Below are positions 10,410-61,181 of a DNA stretch of 64,000 bases, piece after piece; position 1 is the stretch's first letter; each line of letters starts with the position of its first letter. Origin of the DNA: Petrotoga sp. 9PWA.NaAc.5.4 (GTDB taxonomy: Bacteria > Thermotogota > Thermotogae > Petrotogales > Petrotogaceae). The stretch is from assembly GCF_002895485.1 (NCBI RefSeq), contig NZ_AZRK01000009.1, forward strand, positions 1-64,000, written 5' to 3'. The notes beneath the pieces are model-generated. The model saw nothing but the letters and a program-made list of their open reading frames with translations, did not search any database and was not told the origin of the DNA. The position numbers and the translations under genes are program-made.

Positions 10410-10775
10410 TGGTGGAGACGGCGGGAGTCGAACCCGCGTCCGAAAACAGGTGAACTCGGCTTCTCCGAGCGCAGCCCACAATCATCTTTCGAATCTTACA
10501 ACTTTGCAGGCAGAGTTATAAGATTCTAGTACCCCTTTGTACTTTCAAAATCCGGGTACAAGATTTTGAAAGAAAGACCTTTTTCTGACGCCTCATTCCT
10601 CAAGAAAGGTCTTCATTAAACTTGAGGAGAGACGAGCTGCGCACTATATTAGGCAGCAGCTAAAGCTAATTCTGGTTTTTCGGCATTTCATAGTTTTTCC
10701 CTTTTTAACGAGGTTTCAGACTCCTCGGCTCGCTTCCCGAGTTCAACCTATTCCCGTCGAATCCGGGACGTCCCC
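10410..10775 (-). ncRNA. ssrA: Transfer-messenger RNA (tmRNA)
   Basis: Rescues stalled ribosomes by acting as tRNA and then mRNA. Read on the minus strand, the 5' end GGGGACG pairs over 7 bp with CGTCTCC before the encoded CCA (10410-10412). The T-arm 'GGTTCGACTCCC'-type sequence and the 5' 'GGATTCGACGGG' region are standard for tmRNA. The tag frame reads AEKPELALAAA and then TAA (about 10652-10687), ending in a hydrophobic proteolysis signal like other tags. Length is 366 nt, one piece, not permuted. A near-ideal promoter lies just upstream. Confidence 0.96.
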
Positions 10776-16248: not shown

Positions 16249-16349
16249 TTAATTAAGGTTTTATTTTTTATATATTTTTTAATAATTATAACATATGTAA
16301 GAAGAATTACCTTTAATTTATTAATTTAAATTATCTATAGAAAATAAAA

Positions 16350-16552
16350 ACTTTAAAAATGGTGATTTTTGAAAAATATGTATGTAAAGTTAAAGTGAGT
16401 TTAGGGTGAAGTTCTATAGTTTCTCTTTTGGTACTTATATTAAGAAGTTAGGAAAGCTCACATTTAAGAAGTATTAAATGTGAAGAGATGTTTTTGAAAG
16501 ACCTAAGTTTTGGAACATTAATAAAACATAAGGTATATAGAACTTCATAAGT
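16350..16552 (+). repeat. Leader repeat, highly degenerate copy upstream of the sugar transporter
   Basis: The left end ACTTTAAAAATGGTGATTTT (16350-16369) and the right end 'aacttcataagtaagta' (about 16541-16557) match the family ends. The 203-bp length fits. The core is largely unrecognisable apart from 'ttctcttttggtac' near 16420-16437. The copy ends 35 bp before the gene start. Confidence 0.55.
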
Positions 16553-21130: not shown

Positions 21131-21199
21131 TTTTTAAAAATTATAAACATATATTTCAAAAAAATTTCAAGTGTTACTTTTTCAAATACATTATTCTAA

Positions 21200-21320
21200 T
21201 ATTAATTAACTAATTTTTCTTTTAAGATATTTAGTATCTTGCAACCAACAAAGAGACGGGCTTCTCCCTAGACTCACTTTAAATTCAAAAAACTATTTAT
21301 CGGTTAATTTTCTAATTGCA
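21200..21320 (-). repeat. Leader-repeat relic in a convergent gap
   Basis: A worn minus-oriented copy with 'gggcttctccctagactcactttaaattcaaaa' landmarks (about 21258-21290). It shares an extension ('aattttctaattgc.taatc', about 21307-21326) with the copy upstream of rho. It is the one copy not placed upstream of a gene. It lies within the 339-bp gap 21083-21421, which otherwise holds only the terminator at 21101. Confidence 0.5.
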
Positions 21321-24326: not shown

Positions 24327-25652
24327 CTACAATGTTTTTTGATTTTCAATAGCTGCCATTATATCGTCATTTGTTTTATATTTTTTTAGTAAAGTAAGTA
24401 TAAATTCCAATGCTTCTTTAGGAGACATATCGTTAATGAATTTTCTTAAAATAATAATATTTTTTAATTCATCTTCATCAAATAAAAGCTCTTCTTTCCT
24501 GGTGCCAGAAAGTTTTAAATTTATTGCTGGAAATAACCTTTCATTTGCCATCTCTCTAGAAAGTATTAGTTCCATGTTTCCTGTTCCTTTAAATTCTTCA
24601 AAAATTACTTCATCCATTTTAGATCCAGTTTCTACTAGAGCAGTGGCTATCATAGTGAGACTTCCACCTTCTCTAACCTTTCTTGCAGCTCCAAAGAATT
24701 TTTTGGGGAAAATGATTGCAGCAGGGTCTAGTCCACCGCTTAGTAATTTACCGCTTGAAGGAACATATAGATTATATTCTCTTGCAAACCTAGTAAGGCT
24801 ATCAATCAAAACTACAACATCATGACCAAACTCTACTAATCTTTTAAAATGGTCCAAAGCCATTTCGGTTATCTTTATTTGACTTTGAGGATCCATATCA
24901 AAAGGAGCAGCTATAACATTTGCATCAACAGTATCTCTTATATCAGTAACTTCTTCAGGCCTTTCGTCTATTAAAAGAATGTATCTCTTTGTTTCAGGAA
25001 AATTTTCTGCGATTGAGTTTGCAATATCTTTAAGCAAAGTAGTTTTTCCTGCTTTTGGTGGCGCAACAATTAAGCCTCGTTGACCAAAACCGATGGGAGA
25101 AAACAAATCTATTATTCGAGAACTGAAAGGGCTATTTTTATGTTCTAACTGCATTCTTTTTTTAGGATACTCGGGAGTAAGGTTTTCAAAAGAAACCCTA
25201 TCTTTTGCATTTTCTGGTGGCAAAGCGTTTATAGCCTCTATTCGGAGTAAGGCAAAAAAACGTTCTCCTTCTTTTGGTGGTCTAACTTGTCCGGCAACAA
25301 TATCACCTGTAAAAAGGTTAAATTTCCTAATTTGAGATTGTGATACATAAACATCATCGCTTCCAGGTAATAAAGAATTATCAATACTTCTTAAAAACCC
25401 GTATCCATCTTGCATAATTTCTAAAATGCCTTCATAAAAGAAATATCCTATTGATTCAGTTTGTTTTCTTAATATCGCAAACTTTAACTCATTTTTTGAC
25501 ATTCGAGAGTAATTAGGAATTTCGAATTTTCTTGCTATGTCATATAATTCTTTTCTAGTCATTTCATTTAATTTGGCCATGTCTATTTCGACAGCTTGAA
25601 TGTTATCTTTTGATTGTTTTTTTGTAATTAAAGTATCAGGATTTTCCTCCAT
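24327..25652 (-). CDS. rho: Transcription termination factor Rho
   Basis: Hexameric RNA-dependent ATPase that ends transcription. The 441-aa protein has an N-terminal Rho helical domain (about 25-65), the RNA-binding cold-shock-like domain (about 70-150, 'YFFYEGILEIMQDGYGFLR'), Walker A APPKAGKT (197-204) and Walker B 'VVVLIDSLTRFARE'. AGGGAGG precedes the ATG. A leader repeat in the same direction ends about 33 bp upstream. Confidence 0.97.
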   Translation of the reverse strand: MEENPDTLITKKQSKDNIQAVEIDMAKLNEMTRKELYDIARKFEIPNYSRMSKNELKFAILRKQTESIGYFFYEGILEIMQDGYGFLRSIDNSLLPGSDDVYVSQSQIRKFNLFTGDIVAGQVRPPKEGERFFALLRIEAINALPPENAKDRVSFENLTPEYPKKRMQLEHKNSPFSSRIIDLFSPIGFGQRGLIVAPPKAGKTTLLKDIANSIAENFPETKRYILLIDERPEEVTDIRDTVDANVIAAPFDMDPQSQIKITEMALDHFKRLVEFGHDVVVLIDSLTRFAREYNLYVPSSGKLLSGGLDPAAIIFPKKFFGAARKVREGGSLTMIATALVETGSKMDEVIFEEFKGTGNMELILSREMANERLFPAINLKLSGTRKEELLFDEDELKNIIILRKFINDMSPKEALEFILTLLKKYKTNDDIMAAIENQKTL

Positions 25653-25684
25653 TTTATTGCCTCCCTATAATTTTTTTATTATTA

Positions 25685-25845
25685 TCTTTAAAAATTATAA
25701 AATACCTCCACAATTCTAATTTTGACCAATTTCTATTTTTTTTAACTTCGTTAGTAACTTTACTGAAAACTGGGAGAGGACTCTGTCCTGGACCTACTAT
25801 ACATTCATAAACTTATTTTATTGGCAAATTTTCTAATTGCGTAAT
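25685..25845 (-). repeat. Leader repeat upstream of rho
   Basis: Minus-oriented copy. Segment 25699-25728 (ataaaatacctccacaattc...) is the reverse complement of the copy at 601-630 with one difference. It is followed by 'aacttcgttagtaac', 'gggagaggactctgtcctggacc' and 'attcataaac'. The terminal repeats are worn. Confidence 0.7.
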
Positions 25846-26374
25846 CGGGTCTAACTGCTTTATACATATAAAATTTTCAAATTTATTGGAGAACTCATGT
25901 AATAAGCCTGCCTTTTCTATCGATTCGCTGCTTTGCAGCAAGAAAAGCACCACATCCTTTCTTGGTCTTGAGCGGATTCACCACTCTAAAAGAGGAATAA
26001 GGATCTATTCCAAACTCACTATAAATTAAAATTTTAATTTCTAAAATCACTATTTGAAATTATCTGACGATGATTTTTTGAGTTTTTTGATATCTACGTT
26101 AATGTTAAAAGGAAGGGTTCTGCTGTGAAGCTGCTATAAATTCAAATACTTATTTATAAAGTTCCTAAAGTTGGAGATTTTATATAAAAATCTTCTAAAA
26201 ATAATTTCACTATAAGTGAAGTTTTTATAACCAAAAAATCAAATAAAAATTTTAGAATATTATATTTACTAAAAAGCTGAAATAAAATGAAGTAATTTCA
26301 TGTAGCAAAATAAAAGAAAGAAAATATCTGTTAGAATAAAAACTCTATCCAATTTTCCTTAATAATAACGTGTG
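25846..26374. other. Non-coding region with further repeat relics
   Basis: There is no credible gene. A GCTGC-TTT-GCAGC hairpin (25927-25939) sits where the leader repeat has its second palindrome. Two fragments ('aaattaaaattttaatttctaaaat' around 26024-26048 and 'gctataaattcaaatacttattt' around 26130-26152) look like decayed repeat pieces, suggesting two extra worn tandem copies. The rest is AT-rich with no recognisable signal. Confidence 0.45.
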
Positions 26375-27973: not shown

Positions 27974-28002
27974 ATAACAATATCAAAAGTTTATAGAGTA
28001 TT

Positions 28003-28147
28003 GAATTTATGTAAGGGAAAACGGTGAAAAACCGTTACGGTCGCGCCACCGTGAGCGAGGACGAAACTTACCTATAGCCACTGGGGATTTACCTGGGAAG
28101 GCGTAAGGAGTAGAAAGATTCGCAAGTCGGGAGACCTACATAAATCC
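28003..28147 (+). promoter_or_regulatory. Cobalamin (adenosylcobalamin-type) riboswitch aptamer
   Basis: Senses B12 in the mRNA leader. Ends pair (ATTTATGTA 28005-28013 with TACATAAAT 28137-28145). Inside are 'GGGAAaacGGTGaaaaaCCGT', the P5 hairpin ACGGT-CGCGCC-ACCGT (28037-28052), 'tagcCACTGGGG', 'TGGGAAGGCG' and 'AGTCGGGAGACC', all landmarks of the cobalamin riboswitch. It lies upstream of a btuFCD-type operon, which fits feedback control of B12 uptake. Confidence 0.96.
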
Positions 28148-28152
28148 AAGAG

Positions 28153-28224
28153 TTTCTATCTTTTCGCGCCAAAAAGATAGAAAATGGTTATTTTTAATGG
28201 CGTAAATTTTTATAGGAGGCCATT
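28153..28224 (+). promoter_or_regulatory. Riboswitch expression platform (L13-type kissing hairpin and ribosome-site helix)
   Basis: Hairpin TTTCTATCTTTT / AAAAGATAGAAA (28153-28164 with 28172-28183) carries the loop CGCGCCA, whose first six bases equal the aptamer L5 loop. CGCG and GCGC are self-complementary, so the loops can kiss. A second helix AATGGC / GCCATT (28196-28201 with 28219-28224) encloses AGGAGG. There is no T run after the first hairpin, so control is probably translational. Confidence 0.7.
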
Positions 28225-28226
28225 TT

Positions 28227-29105
28227 ATGAAAAAGTTTTTTGTAAGTTTAGTGTTGATTTTGGTATCTGTTTTAGCAGTGTCTCAACTTTCTTTGGTTGA
28301 TGATCTCGGAAGATTGGTAGTGTTTGAAAATGATGTTGAACATGTAGTTTCAGCGGCACCTTTAGTTTCTGATTACATAAAACATTTAGGTTTAGAAGAA
28401 AAAGTTATAGGAGTAACTGATTGGGATACTATTATTCAAAAGGAGAAAATAGGTAACTTGATTCCTTTAAATATTGAAAAAATTGTTTCTTTAAATCCAG
28501 AGTTAGTATTTGTTAGTGGCGGATTCCAAGAACCTGAAGTAAAAAGGTTGGAACAACATAACATAAAAACTTTTGTTATCAATCCTACAAACTTTAATGA
28601 TATTTACAGGGAATTGATCATCATAGGAACAATTTTAGGAGAAAGAGAAAAGGCTTCGATACTTTCTAACGAATTAAGGGAAAAGGTATTAAATATTGCT
28701 AAGGAAACGTTCACTTGGAAGGATAAGCCGCGTGTTTTATATTTGATGGTTCAAAATAATATTTCACAGATTTGGACAGCAGGTACTGGTTCTTATATAA
28801 ATGAGTTGATATCTTACGCTGGAGGTTTGAACTTAGCAGCTTTATATACAGGGAATAACGGTTTTTTACAAGTTGGGCCCGAGTTTGTTGTTTCTCAAAA
28901 TCCAGATATAATTATCGTTGACTCTTATTATGAAGGAGACGAAAATGCAAAAAATGCTATTATGAATGCTCCACAGTTCCAAAACATTAAAGCCGTTAAA
29001 GAAGGCAGAATAATTATGGTTGATGGGAATAAAATGTCTCTGGCTTCTCCTTCATTAATTGAAATTTTAGAACAACTATACAAGTATTTTGGTGAATATC
29101 GTTGA
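28227..29105 (+). CDS. btuF: Cobalamin ABC transporter substrate-binding protein
   Basis: Periplasmic-binding protein of 292 aa of the metal-chelate/vitamin B12 class (helical backbone type). It has a signal peptide (MKKFFVSLVLILVSVLAVS), then 'DDLGRLVVFENDVEHVVSAAPLVSDYIKHLG' in the BtuF layout and 'NPELVFVSGG'. The assignment to B12 rests on the riboswitch upstream. No lipobox is seen. AGGAGG lies 7 bp before ATG. It overlaps the permease gene by 4 bp. Confidence 0.9.
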   Translation: MKKFFVSLVLILVSVLAVSQLSLVDDLGRLVVFENDVEHVVSAAPLVSDYIKHLGLEEKVIGVTDWDTIIQKEKIGNLIPLNIEKIVSLNPELVFVSGGFQEPEVKRLEQHNIKTFVINPTNFNDIYRELIIIGTILGEREKASILSNELREKVLNIAKETFTWKDKPRVLYLMVQNNISQIWTAGTGSYINELISYAGGLNLAALYTGNNGFLQVGPEFVVSQNPDIIIVDSYYEGDENAKNAIMNAPQFQNIKAVKEGRIIMVDGNKMSLASPSLIEILEQLYKYFGEYR

Positions 29106-32119: not shown

Positions 32120-32155
32120 AACAATCTTCACCTTCTTATTTTAAGGCTTTTAATC

Positions 32156-32313
32156 ACTTTAAAAATTCTAAACTTCACATTTTATAAATATTTTTGATTA
32201 ACTACTATTTCTTAACTTCTTCGCTACACGTAGCAAAAGGGAGGGAGAGGGCTCCGCCCTGAACCCATTTTAAATTCAAAAGCTTATTTTCTGAAAATTT
32301 TCATTTCTAAAGT
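32156..32313 (-). repeat. Leader repeat, tandem copy 1 of 3 upstream of the Rrf2 gene
   Basis: 158 bp, bounded by ACTTTAAAAATT and ATTTCTAAAGT. It contains the GCTAC-AC-GTAGC palindrome (about 32223-32234) and GGGCTCCGCCC (reverse complement of the GGGCGGAGCCC hairpin). This is a short variant lacking about 40 bp of the usual right arm. Confidence 0.88.
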
Positions 32314-32333
32314 ACCTACTACAATAATACTTC

Positions 32334-32491
32334 ACTTTAAAAATTCTAAACTTCACATTTTATAAATATTTTTGATTAACTACTATTTCTTAACTTCTTC
32401 GTTACACGTAGCGAAAGGGAGGGAGAGGGCTCCGCCCTGGACCCATTTTAAATTCAAATGCTTGTTTTTAAAAAATTCTCATTTCTAAAGT
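32334..32491 (-). repeat. Leader repeat, tandem copy 2 of 3
   Basis: 158 bp with the same ends, 178 bp from copy 1 and nearly identical to it. The 20-bp spacer between copies is also shared, so the array arose by duplication of a 178-bp unit. Confidence 0.88.
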
Positions 32492-32511
32492 ACCTACTAT
32501 AATAATACTTC

Positions 32512-32668
32512 ACTTTAAAAATTCTAAACTTCACATTTTATAAATATTTTTGATTAACTACTATTTCTTAACTTCTTCGTTACACGTAGCGAAAGGGAGG
32601 GAGAGGGCTCCGCCCCCTTACCGTCATAAATTCAAAAGCTAATTTTTCAATTTTTTTGTTTCTATAGT
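32512..32668 (-). repeat. Leader repeat, tandem copy 3 of 3
   Basis: The half proximal to the Rrf2 gene is identical to copy 2; the distal part diverges after GGGCTCCGCCCC. Together the three copies fill the 574-bp gap (32132-32705 relative to the chosen neighbours). No gene is present there. Confidence 0.82.
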
Positions 32669-32705
32669 CTCTATTAAGGTTCTTGAATTCTTTTAACTAT
32701 TAAAT

Positions 32706-37156: not shown

Positions 37157-37352
37157 ATGTGAAATGATAATTTCGAAAAATAAGCATTTGAATCTAAAAT
37201 GGGTCCAGGGCGGAGCCCTCTCCCCCTTCCTTGGCTACAAGTACCGAAAAAGGTAAAGAGATTAGGAATTAGTAAGGATTAGAACTGAGGAGGTATTTTG
37301 TAAAAGAATCAACGTTAAAATATACATATAATAAGGATTTTGGAATTTCTAA
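37157..37352 (+). repeat. Leader repeat upstream of surE
   Basis: About 196 bp. It contains 'aagcatttgaatctaaaatgg', GGGCGGAGCCC (37208-37218 area), 'ggctacaagtacc', 'aggaattagtaaggattag', 'gaggaggtattttgtaaaag', an AT-rich TATAATA-type element (about 37328-37334) and the right end AATTTCTAAAGT. It ends about 33 bp before the surE ATG. The gap 36963-37385 holds nothing else. Confidence 0.88.
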
Positions 37353-37385
37353 AGTAAGTAAACAGTAAAAGAATAGGAGGTAAAT

Positions 37386-41130: not shown

Positions 41131-41254
41131 TGTTTTTATAATATCAAAAATTTATGTTTTAATCTTTAAGTTCGAGAAAAGCTTTTATAAATATATGAAT
41201 TAATTAACTTTTCATACTTTTATGATAAAATAAAAAATATAGAAAAATAGATCA

Positions 41255-41452
41255 ATTAAAAAAGAGGATTTTCTACAAATAAGCATTTGAATTTATAACG
41301 GGGTCCAGGACGGAGCCATACCCTACCCTGCCGAGCTACAAGTAACAAAAAAGTTAAAAAATTCAGAATTAGTAAGGATTAGAACTGAGAAGATGTTTTG
41401 TAAAAAATTAATTCTAAAACACATATAATAAGGATTTTAGAATTTCTAAAGT
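41255..41452 (+). repeat. Leader repeat upstream of the HAD phosphatase gene
   Basis: About 198 bp with 'aagcatttgaatttataac', 'gggtccaggacggagcc', 'gagctacaagtaac', 'agaattagtaaggattagaactgag', 'gatgttttgtaaaa', 'catataataagg' and the right end ATTTCTAAAGT (41442-41452). It ends 28 bp before the start codon. With the copy at 41022 it fills most of the 508-bp divergent gap. Confidence 0.85.
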
Positions 41453-41480
41453 GGGTAGGATATAATTTAAGGAGGCTTTT

Positions 41481-48440: not shown

Positions 48441-48499
48441 CCGCCTGGATTCATTTTAAATTCAAATACCTCTTTTCTGAAAACTTTCATTTCTAAAGT
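48441..48499 (-). repeat. Leader repeat, left-half fragment upstream of secG
   Basis: The reverse complement reads ACTTTAGAAATG...TTTGAATTTAAAATG...TCCAGGCGG. The right half is missing; the break lies about 28 bp before secG. It is oriented towards secG. Confidence 0.7.
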
Positions 48500-48797
48500 T
48501 CCTGCATTTTATACTTGATTAGAGACATGCATACAATACCCACTCTAAACCAGCATTTTAAAGTTTCTACTATTTTTATTATATTTTATTTCTATAAAGA
48601 TTAATTATCAATTATCTTATATAACAGTTTAAATTTATTATATCATACTACTTTTTCTTATGCAACTTTATTTTAATATTATTAAGTAAGAGAAAATCAA
48701 AGATTTTTTAGCTTAATTAAACTTAAAAAACGATAATTCTCTCTAATTTCTGTTAATTGGATTAGAATTTTTTATAATATATTTAGTAAAATAAATA

Positions 48798-48837: not shown

Positions 48838-48861
48838 AATGCAACTGATAATATTCTACTA

Positions 48862-48942
48862 AGTTTAGAAACGAAACATTTTGAAAAATAATATATTAGA
48901 TTTAAAATAGGTCCAGGGCAAGGATTTTGAAATTTCTAAAGC
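48862..48942 (+). repeat. Leader repeat, deletion derivative upstream of the LacI-family gene
   Basis: The 81-bp copy keeps the left arm (AGTTTAGAAAC ... 'tttaaaataggtccagggca') joined directly to the right end ('aggattttgaaatttctaaag'), so about 120 bp of core is deleted between GGGC and AAGGATTTT. It ends 38 bp before the start codon. Confidence 0.8.
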
Positions 48943-50029: not shown

Positions 50030-50178
50030 GTTCGTAATAGATATTTAGAGTTGCTAAAAATAAGCTTTTGAATTTATAACGGGTTCAGGGCGGAGCCTTT
50101 CTCCCTCTCTTTTGGTAAAAATAACGAAGAAATTTAAAGAAATTCTTACTTTGTAAAGATTAGAGTTGAGGATTAGAT
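50030..50178 (+). repeat. Leader repeat, degenerate first copy upstream of the pullulanase gene
   Basis: Carries 'aagcttttgaatttata', 'gggttcagggcggagcc', 'ttttggtaaaaataacgaagaa' and 'ttgtaaagattagagttgag'. The right arm is missing; the second copy begins 5 bp later. Confidence 0.75.
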
Positions 50179-50182
50179 AGAG

Positions 50183-50376
50183 ACTTTAGAAATGGGAAGT
50201 TTTTAAAAATAAGCATTTGAATTTAAAATGGGTTCAGGGCGGAGCCCTCCTCTCTCTCCTTAGCTACACGTACCGAAAAAGATAAAGAAATTAGTAAGGA
50301 TTAGAAGAGGGAGGTATTTTGTAAAAAGTTAAACGCCGAAATATTTATAAAATGTGAAGTTTAAAATTTCTAAAGT
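50183..50376 (+). repeat. Leader repeat, second copy upstream of the pullulanase gene
   Basis: 194 bp with perfect terminal inverted repeats: ACTTTAGAAAT at 50183-50193 and ATTTCTAAAGT at 50366-50376. It contains GGGCGGAGCCC and 'gctacacgtacc'. It ends 42 bp before the pullulanase ATG. The two copies occupy the 428-bp gap. Confidence 0.9.
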
Positions 50377-50418
50377 AAGTAAGATAATTTAATTAATTAA
50401 TATGAGGAGGTAGATACT

Positions 50419-57577: not shown

Positions 57578-57595
57578 AAAGATAAAATAATATGG

Positions 57596-57870
57596 ACTTT
57601 AGAAATGAAGATTTTCGAAAAATAAAGCATTTGAATTTAAAATGGGTCCAGGGCGGAGCCCTCTCCCCTTTCCTTGGCTACAAGTACCGAATATCTGTGG
57701 TTTTGAATTTAAAATGGGTCTAGGGCGGAGCCCTCTCCCCCCTTCCTTTGGTACAAGTACCGAGAAACTAAAGAAATTAGGAATTAGTAAGGATTAGAAG
57801 TGGGGAGGTATTTTGTAAAAGAATCAACGCTAAAACATATATATAATAAAGATTTTGGAATTTCTAAAGT
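57596..57870 (+). repeat. Leader repeat with duplicated core upstream of the ornithine carbamoyltransferase gene
   Basis: 275 bp with perfect terminal inverted repeats: ACTTTAGAAAT (57596-57606) and ATTTCTAAAGT (57860-57870). The central hairpin block (TTTGAATTTAAAATGGGTC through GTACCGA) is present twice, at about 57630-57690 and 57702-57762. The right arm is complete, with 'ggaattagtaaggattag', 'gaggtattttgtaaaag' and 'atataataaag'. It ends 34 bp before the gene. Confidence 0.92.
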
Positions 57871-57904
57871 GAGTAAATAAAATATAAAACAGGAGGAATT
57901 GTTT

Positions 57905-60690: not shown

Positions 60691-60724
60691 GACACAACCC
60701 TCCTTATATCAAAAATATATACTC

Positions 60725-60924
60725 ACTTTAGAAATTCTAGAATCCTTATTATATATATGTTTTAGAATTGTTTTTTTACAAAACACCTCTCCACTTCTAA
60801 TCCTTACTAATTCCTAATTTCTTTAGTTTTTCGGTATTTGTACCGAAGAGTAGGGGAAAGGGCTCCGCCCTGGACCCATTTTAAATTCAAAAGTTTAATT
60901 TTAAAAAATTCTCATTTCTAAAGT
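60725..60924 (-). repeat. Leader repeat, copy proximal to pyrF
   Basis: 200 bp with perfect terminal inverted repeats: ACTTTAGAAAT at 60725-60735 and ATTTCTAAAGT at 60914-60924. It contains the TCGGTA-TTTG-TACCGA palindrome (60831-60846) and GGGCTCCGCCC. It is close to the family consensus and probably one of the younger copies. Confidence 0.93.
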
Positions 60925-60946
60925 CCCTATCAAACAATATATGCTC

Positions 60947-61147
60947 ACTTTAAAAATTCGAAACTTCGCATTTTATAGATATTTCAGCGGTTAACTTTTT
61001 ACAAAATACCTTCCTGCTTCTAACCCTTACTAATTCTTAATTTCTTTAGTTTTTCGGTATTTGTACCGAAGAGTAGGGGAGAGGGCTCCGCCCTGAATCC
61101 GTTTTAAATTCAAAAGCTTATTTTTCGAAAATCTTCATTTCCAAAAT
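60947..61147 (-). repeat. Leader repeat, second tandem copy upstream of pyrF
   Basis: 201 bp, 222 bp from the first copy, with the same palindromes. The terminal repeats carry a few changes (ACTTTAAAAAT, ATTTCCAAAAT). The two copies fill the 491-bp gap 60691-61181. Confidence 0.9.
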
Positions 61148-61181
61148 CCTTATGGAACAATCTAACTTTAATAAATTTCTA

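Follow-up and report, generated by a model that had tools for sequence, protein, structure and literature searches.

Copies of the Repeat in the Window

The palindrome GCTGC-TTT-GCAGC lies at 25927-25939 of the window, the 64,000-nucleotide stretch of a Petrotoga sp. 9PWA.NaAc.5.4 contig analysed here, which has a G+C content of 30%. A full-sensitivity profile search of 25650-26200 locates two minus-strand copies of a repeat around it: a degenerate copy upstream of rho at 25695-25819 (58 bits) and a very degenerate one at 26009-26160 (14 bits). The palindrome falls in the gap between them. The initial annotation had placed it at the same repeat position as the second palindrome of other copies; the sequence is genuine, but it sits outside the repeat. 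In the nearest copy (25695-25819), the second palindrome is actually CAGTAAAGTTACTA at 25752-25765, where AGTAA-AG-TTACT still pairs. Perfect 5-bp hairpins with at least three G/C per arm are numerous in the window (29, vs 9-17 in Markov shuffles), and a single GCTGC-GCAGC is therefore unremarkable.

Other copies are spread along the window on both strands. A plus-strand copy at 506-682 (profile 34-213, 88 bits) carries the second palindrome TGGTACAAGTACCG at 563-576 (GGTACAAGTACC at 564), a degenerate plus-strand copy at 16343-16532 (39 bits) has lost it, and a further degenerate copy lies on the minus strand at 21133-21298 (31 bits). Upstream of an Rrf2-family gene, a minus-strand tandem array of three copies with a 178-nt period occupies 32154-32676; its second palindrome is paired at 32222-32235 (GCTACACGTAGC at 32223) and has a C.A mismatch at 32400-32413 and 32578-32591. 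Single plus-strand copies are found upstream of surE at 37161-37359, with the second palindrome GGCTACAAGTACCG at 37233-37246 containing a C.C mismatch or bulged C, and at 41249-41456, also with a mismatched second palindrome. Left-end fragments lie at 48442-48506 (minus strand) and 48857-48919 (plus strand). Two-copy arrays are located upstream of a type I pullulanase gene (50039-50380, plus strand), at 57587-57874 (plus strand) and upstream of pyrF (60721-61156, minus strand). The second of these has a candidate outer target-site duplication, AAAAGATAAAA / AAAATATAAAA (one mismatch, score 8), followed by AGGAGG, and the terminal copy of the pyrF array is followed by the Shine-Dalgarno (SD) sequence AGGAGG. 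Both second palindromes of the pyrF array, at 60832-60845 and 61055-61068, read CGGTACAAATACCG on the minus strand (CGGTATTTGTACCG at 60832).

The stem is kept in six window copies (563, 25752, 32222, 57749, 60832 and 61055) and mismatched in the other nine that can be aligned at that position. The palindromes previously read at 564, 32223, 60832 and the copy next to it were confirmed, as was the remark that some copies are mismatched (37233-37246 and 50262-50275). The first hairpin, GGGC-GGA-GCCC, occurs in the window in nine exact copies and one near copy against a chance expectation of 0.04. It had been described as invariant in most copies, which is roughly right for the arms, GGGC/GCCC being present in 199 copies in 1.2 Mb; the loop varies (GGA 180, GAA 40, AGA 35, ACA 19). 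The window also contains a cobalamin riboswitch at 27976-28157, upstream of a gene cluster starting at 28227, and a tmRNA gene at 10410-10775 that was matched by Rfam and missed by ARAGORN.

Identity of the Repeat and Its Parent Insertion Sequence

The repeat is a MITE, a short parasitic non-coding transposon present in hundreds of copies, and the initial annotation had overlooked that the hairpin belongs to a mobile element. Allowing for three mismatches or fewer, the core GGGTYCAGGGCGGAGCCCT is matched 508 times in the 2.22-Mb genome and its reversed control never. Copy statistics cover 1.21 Mb of the 2.22 Mb (54% of the genome), in which the copy-derived profile finds 403 matches grouped in 215 arrays. 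The unit is about 215 nt long with the ends TANNNACTTTAGAAAT ... ATTTCTAAAGTNNNTA, and terminal inverted repeats are present (ACTTTAGAAAT ... ATTTCTAAAGT). Target-site duplications of about 11 nt score at least 9 in 26 of 87 full copies, compared to about 3 expected from shuffled pairings; at the level of arrays, a score of at least 8 is reached by 14/40 single copies and 20/51 multi-copy arrays (null about 5%). In one genome (G014) the element lies within AAAAATATCTTC|...|AATATCTTCAATAGGGAGG, while the orthologous site is empty in related species (G002, G016, G018), which have an uninterrupted AAAAAATATCTTCAACATGGAGG or AAAAAATATTTTCAATAGGGAGG. The inverted ends, the flanking duplications and the empty orthologous site together identify the repeat as a transposon. 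A matching contig of a Thermotogota MAG carries the same repeat.

Multi-copy arrays are each bounded by a single outer duplication, which favours tandem expansion after one insertion. A five-unit tandem array with a 129-133-nt period (L069:14880-15700), with one outer target duplication, ACTAATTAG, shows such internal growth after a single insertion. Formation of arrays by nested insertion into the internal GGGGAGG of the element was considered and rejected, with an SD-like motif at the right distance in 1 of 25 internal right ends. The internal motif GGGGAGGT, itself SD-like, is found in MITE profile columns 140-155 (e.g. window 57790-57820), and a C-rich stretch upstream of it, CTCTCCCCCTTCC, could pair with it.

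The source genome contains a parent insertion sequence (IS) with the same ends as the MITE (L153, about 1160-2780). Its 442-aa transposase gene (1399-2727) lies between ACTTTAGAAATGA (1164) and GAATTTCTAAAGT (ending at 2777), and its product is the one DDE_Tnp_1 transposase that a Pfam search of the genome recovered. Both DUF772 (PF05598) and DDE_Tnp_1 (PF01609) score above cut-off in this protein, an architecture typical of the IS1182 family. The curated IS1182 model NF033551 is its best NCBIfam match, yet the score of 55.5 bits is far below the cut-off of 270 and the family assignment is therefore loose. A second, broken transposase homologue and fragments are present on other contigs. Within the family, five genera have homologous transposases or remnants of them, and MITE cores are numerous in three of the five. 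A search for the parent by long inverted pairs of the terminal repeat (857 kb, profile matches masked) returned only chance-like pairs. A related MITE in the sister genus g3 (L106, L107, L112, L113, L129) preserves the first hairpin and, approximately, the ends; where the second palindrome would be expected, it has another GC-rich sequence, GGGCGGGCTGCTGGGCGAAGGGGAG.

Position and Direction of Insertion

Across three genera, the MITE and its parent share a single orientation in which the right end points to the gene and lies about 20 nt upstream of the SD. The downstream gene is co-directed for 268 of 284 intergenic copies, and convergent gaps hold only six copies. An SD-like motif is found 15-23 nt past the right end in 127 of 153 terminal copies (at 18-22 nt in 118 of the 127), compared to 3.3% of random positions and to 1/25 internal array copies. 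The target in aligned duplications is an AT-rich 11-mer, approximately, that ends mostly 3-7 nt before the SD motif. The parent IS of the source genome has a 20-nt spacing to the SD, as the MITE does, and parent elements in three genera share the direction with a spacing of 19-22 nt, with one exception (L158). One parent relative in another genus has the duplication ATTACCTTCAAAA on both sides, and MITE copies in two further genera lie 17-22 nt from the SD in 13 of 17 cases. Since the parent elements have the same direction, orientation seems to be set at insertion.

Selection may also contribute to the orientation bias, as reversal of the element would halve the predicted accessibility of the SD: the unpaired probability from folding is 0.34 in the natural direction and 0.16 with the element reversed (p=7e-9). 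By the same prediction, shuffled sequence in place of the sense element leaves the SD more accessible (0.43 vs 0.34). Selective survival of insertions, as opposed to recognition of a target, could also account for part of the SD-adjacent location; positions scatter almost as widely in their distance from the SD (IQR 19-22) as in that from the start codon (IQR 31-35). On balance, the IS and MITE family probably targets the SD itself in one direction, such that leaders are hit while promoters, ribosome-binding sites and coding sequences are spared, i.e. a "safe-haven" strategy.

Covariation and Folding of the Second Hairpin

A covariation test, which had been proposed with the initial annotation, was run on genome-wide copies (203) against a tree-aware null in which the relationships among copies and the number of substitutions per column are preserved, the tree being built without the hairpin columns. 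One stem pair was supported and the remaining pairs were not. The supported pair, 92-101, is the third of the stem and changes from G-C to C-G (z=5.9; paired 0.66 vs 0.48 under the null, p<0.005); it is G-C in 68 copies, C-G in 47 and a C.C mismatch in 30, and 12 same-branch changes from one canonical pair to another are inferred for it. The outer pair 87-106 is associated without improved pairing. No other stem pair has a significant association against the tree null, with 95-98 paired slightly above it (p=0.04). Several significantly covarying stem pairs would be expected of a selected structured RNA, and one was found. A whole-element G-test scan with APC and the tree null yielded no pair at E<0.05, subfamily linkage being dominant, and RNAalifold returned no consensus structure for the full alignment.

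The unpaired loop column 97 is linked more strongly than the stem pair is (97-101, z=16.7; 92-97, z=9.7), and therefore the changes mostly switch between linked haplotypes, GGTAC-AA-GTACC vs GCTAC-AC/AT-GTAGC. When arms were swapped between closely related copies, the cognate arms folded better in 62 cases vs 26, by a mean of 2.6 kcal/mol per pair (p=1.6e-4). This shows that pairing is kept more often than relatedness predicts, part of which could be produced by whole-hairpin conversion between copies. The earlier proposal that both arms change together through conserved pairing thus stands for the one covarying pair and the better fold of cognate arms, whereas most of the joint change reflects linked haplotypes. 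Second-hairpin loops fit the YNMG tetraloop pattern in 154/221 copies, which is a lead towards RNA rather than DNA. First-hairpin loops are mostly GNA closed by C-G, and such loops would also be compatible with a stable DNA hairpin.

Three alternative accounts of the second hairpin can be weighed on these data. The hairpin may be neutral, with two or three haplotypes shuffled among copies by gene conversion in a manner that mimics compensation. The strongest associations, 97-101 and then 92-97, involve the unpaired loop column, and near-identical copies can differ in hairpin haplotype, as expected from short-tract conversion. However, the two commonest paired haplotypes are each palindromic, rarer variants such as the one at 25752 also pair, and the same-branch canonical changes at 92-101 would have to be accommodated; we regard this account as possible rather than probable. 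A second account holds that the palindrome is a selected regulatory RNA hairpin (attenuator, RNA-stability or protein-binding element) and that the repeat spread through its usefulness to downstream genes. Although the better fold of cognate arms among close relatives, the one pair that covaries beyond the tree null, the YNMG pattern and the near-constant location of copies before genes in the sense direction agree with such a role, it appears unlikely: the linkage to the unpaired loop base exceeds that of the single covarying pair, 44% of copies fold less stably than -3 kcal/mol, most related g3 elements have a different sequence instead of the hairpin, no credible Rfam match was found for the repeat, and insertion specificity common to the parent IS already explains position and direction. 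Finally, the palindrome is short, near-perfect, intergenic and upstream of genes, as an inverted-repeat binding site for a DNA-binding protein would be, yet its half-sites vary (193 distinct 22-nt windows in 241 copies) where a protein site should stay fixed and many copies are asymmetric, making this account very improbable. The second hairpin is thus probably maintained under weak or modest selection for pairing, and this is the least certain step of the explanation.

Proposed Mechanism

Taken jointly, the evidence makes it highly likely that the repeat is a MITE moved by an IS1182/IS5-like element, inserted next to the SD, lying in the 5' leader and retaining a weakly kept second hairpin. 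The IS1182/IS5-like DDE transposase of the parent would mobilise the MITE in trans. Insertion takes place immediately upstream of the SD with a target-site duplication of about 11 nt, placing the right end typically 18-22 nt from GGAGG, and the transposase would recognise the SD side of its target asymmetrically. After insertion, copies often multiply in tandem, with a single duplication flanking the whole array. The MITE would usually be transcribed within the 5' untranslated leader, where the second palindrome may form an internal hairpin whose self-contained folding leaves the SD free.

Promoter-like sites with up to two mismatches are found upstream of 27 of 146 arrays vs 12.6 expected. 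This modest enrichment agrees with transcription through the element and is no proof of it; transcription as a leader is for this reason still inferred. An internal sigma-70 promoter was also considered, and near-matches in the element are only weakly above shuffles.

Relation to Known Elements and Significance

REP/BIME elements with RAYT transposases likewise form intergenic arrays of GC-rich palindromes. The GC-rich palindrome, intergenic location and tandem arrays of the repeat might suggest a REP/BIME-like sequence mobilised by a Y1 transposase of the REP-associated type. This reading is contradicted by the evidence and was rejected: Y1_Tnp (PF01797) is present in 0 of the 15 genomes of the family searched, the source genome included, and a single-strand Y1 mechanism is at odds with inverted terminal repeats and target-site duplications. 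The Petrotoga repeat differs in being a double-ended DDE-type transposon.

That resident IS elements give rise to MITEs is well established (PMC3049150; PMC3852290). BOX and RUP of Streptococcus pneumoniae resemble the Petrotoga MITE in being short, AT-rich outside the hairpins and base-paired, with terminal inverted repeats, target-site duplications, ends in common with a resident IS, many copies and an intergenic location (PMC3049150). The fixed orientation and near-fixed distance to the SD set the Petrotoga MITE apart, BOX and RUP being described without them in the part of that source covered here (PMC3049150). The ISMac2 MITEs of Methanosarcina acetivorans (IS1182 family) also derive from a resident element and are 160-169 nt long compared to about 215 nt here; the Petrotoga MITE differs in its hundreds of copies rather than 7-14, its target duplication of about 11 nt and its insertion at the SD (PMC3852290). 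In the literature searched, whose coverage is incomplete, no element with a fixed position and direction before the SD was found, and a search for literature on repeats of this bacterial family gave nothing relevant.

For the question of the hairpin, the repeat supplies a large natural set of copies, though the signal is small. If the transposase reads the SD as its target, this would be an unusual mobile element, one whose preference for translation-initiation leaders keeps it from doing harm, and the target choice of IS1182/IS5-like transposases would become directly testable. Hundreds of genes in one bacterium have nearly the same inserted leader, and any effect of this leader on expression would therefore be genome-wide.
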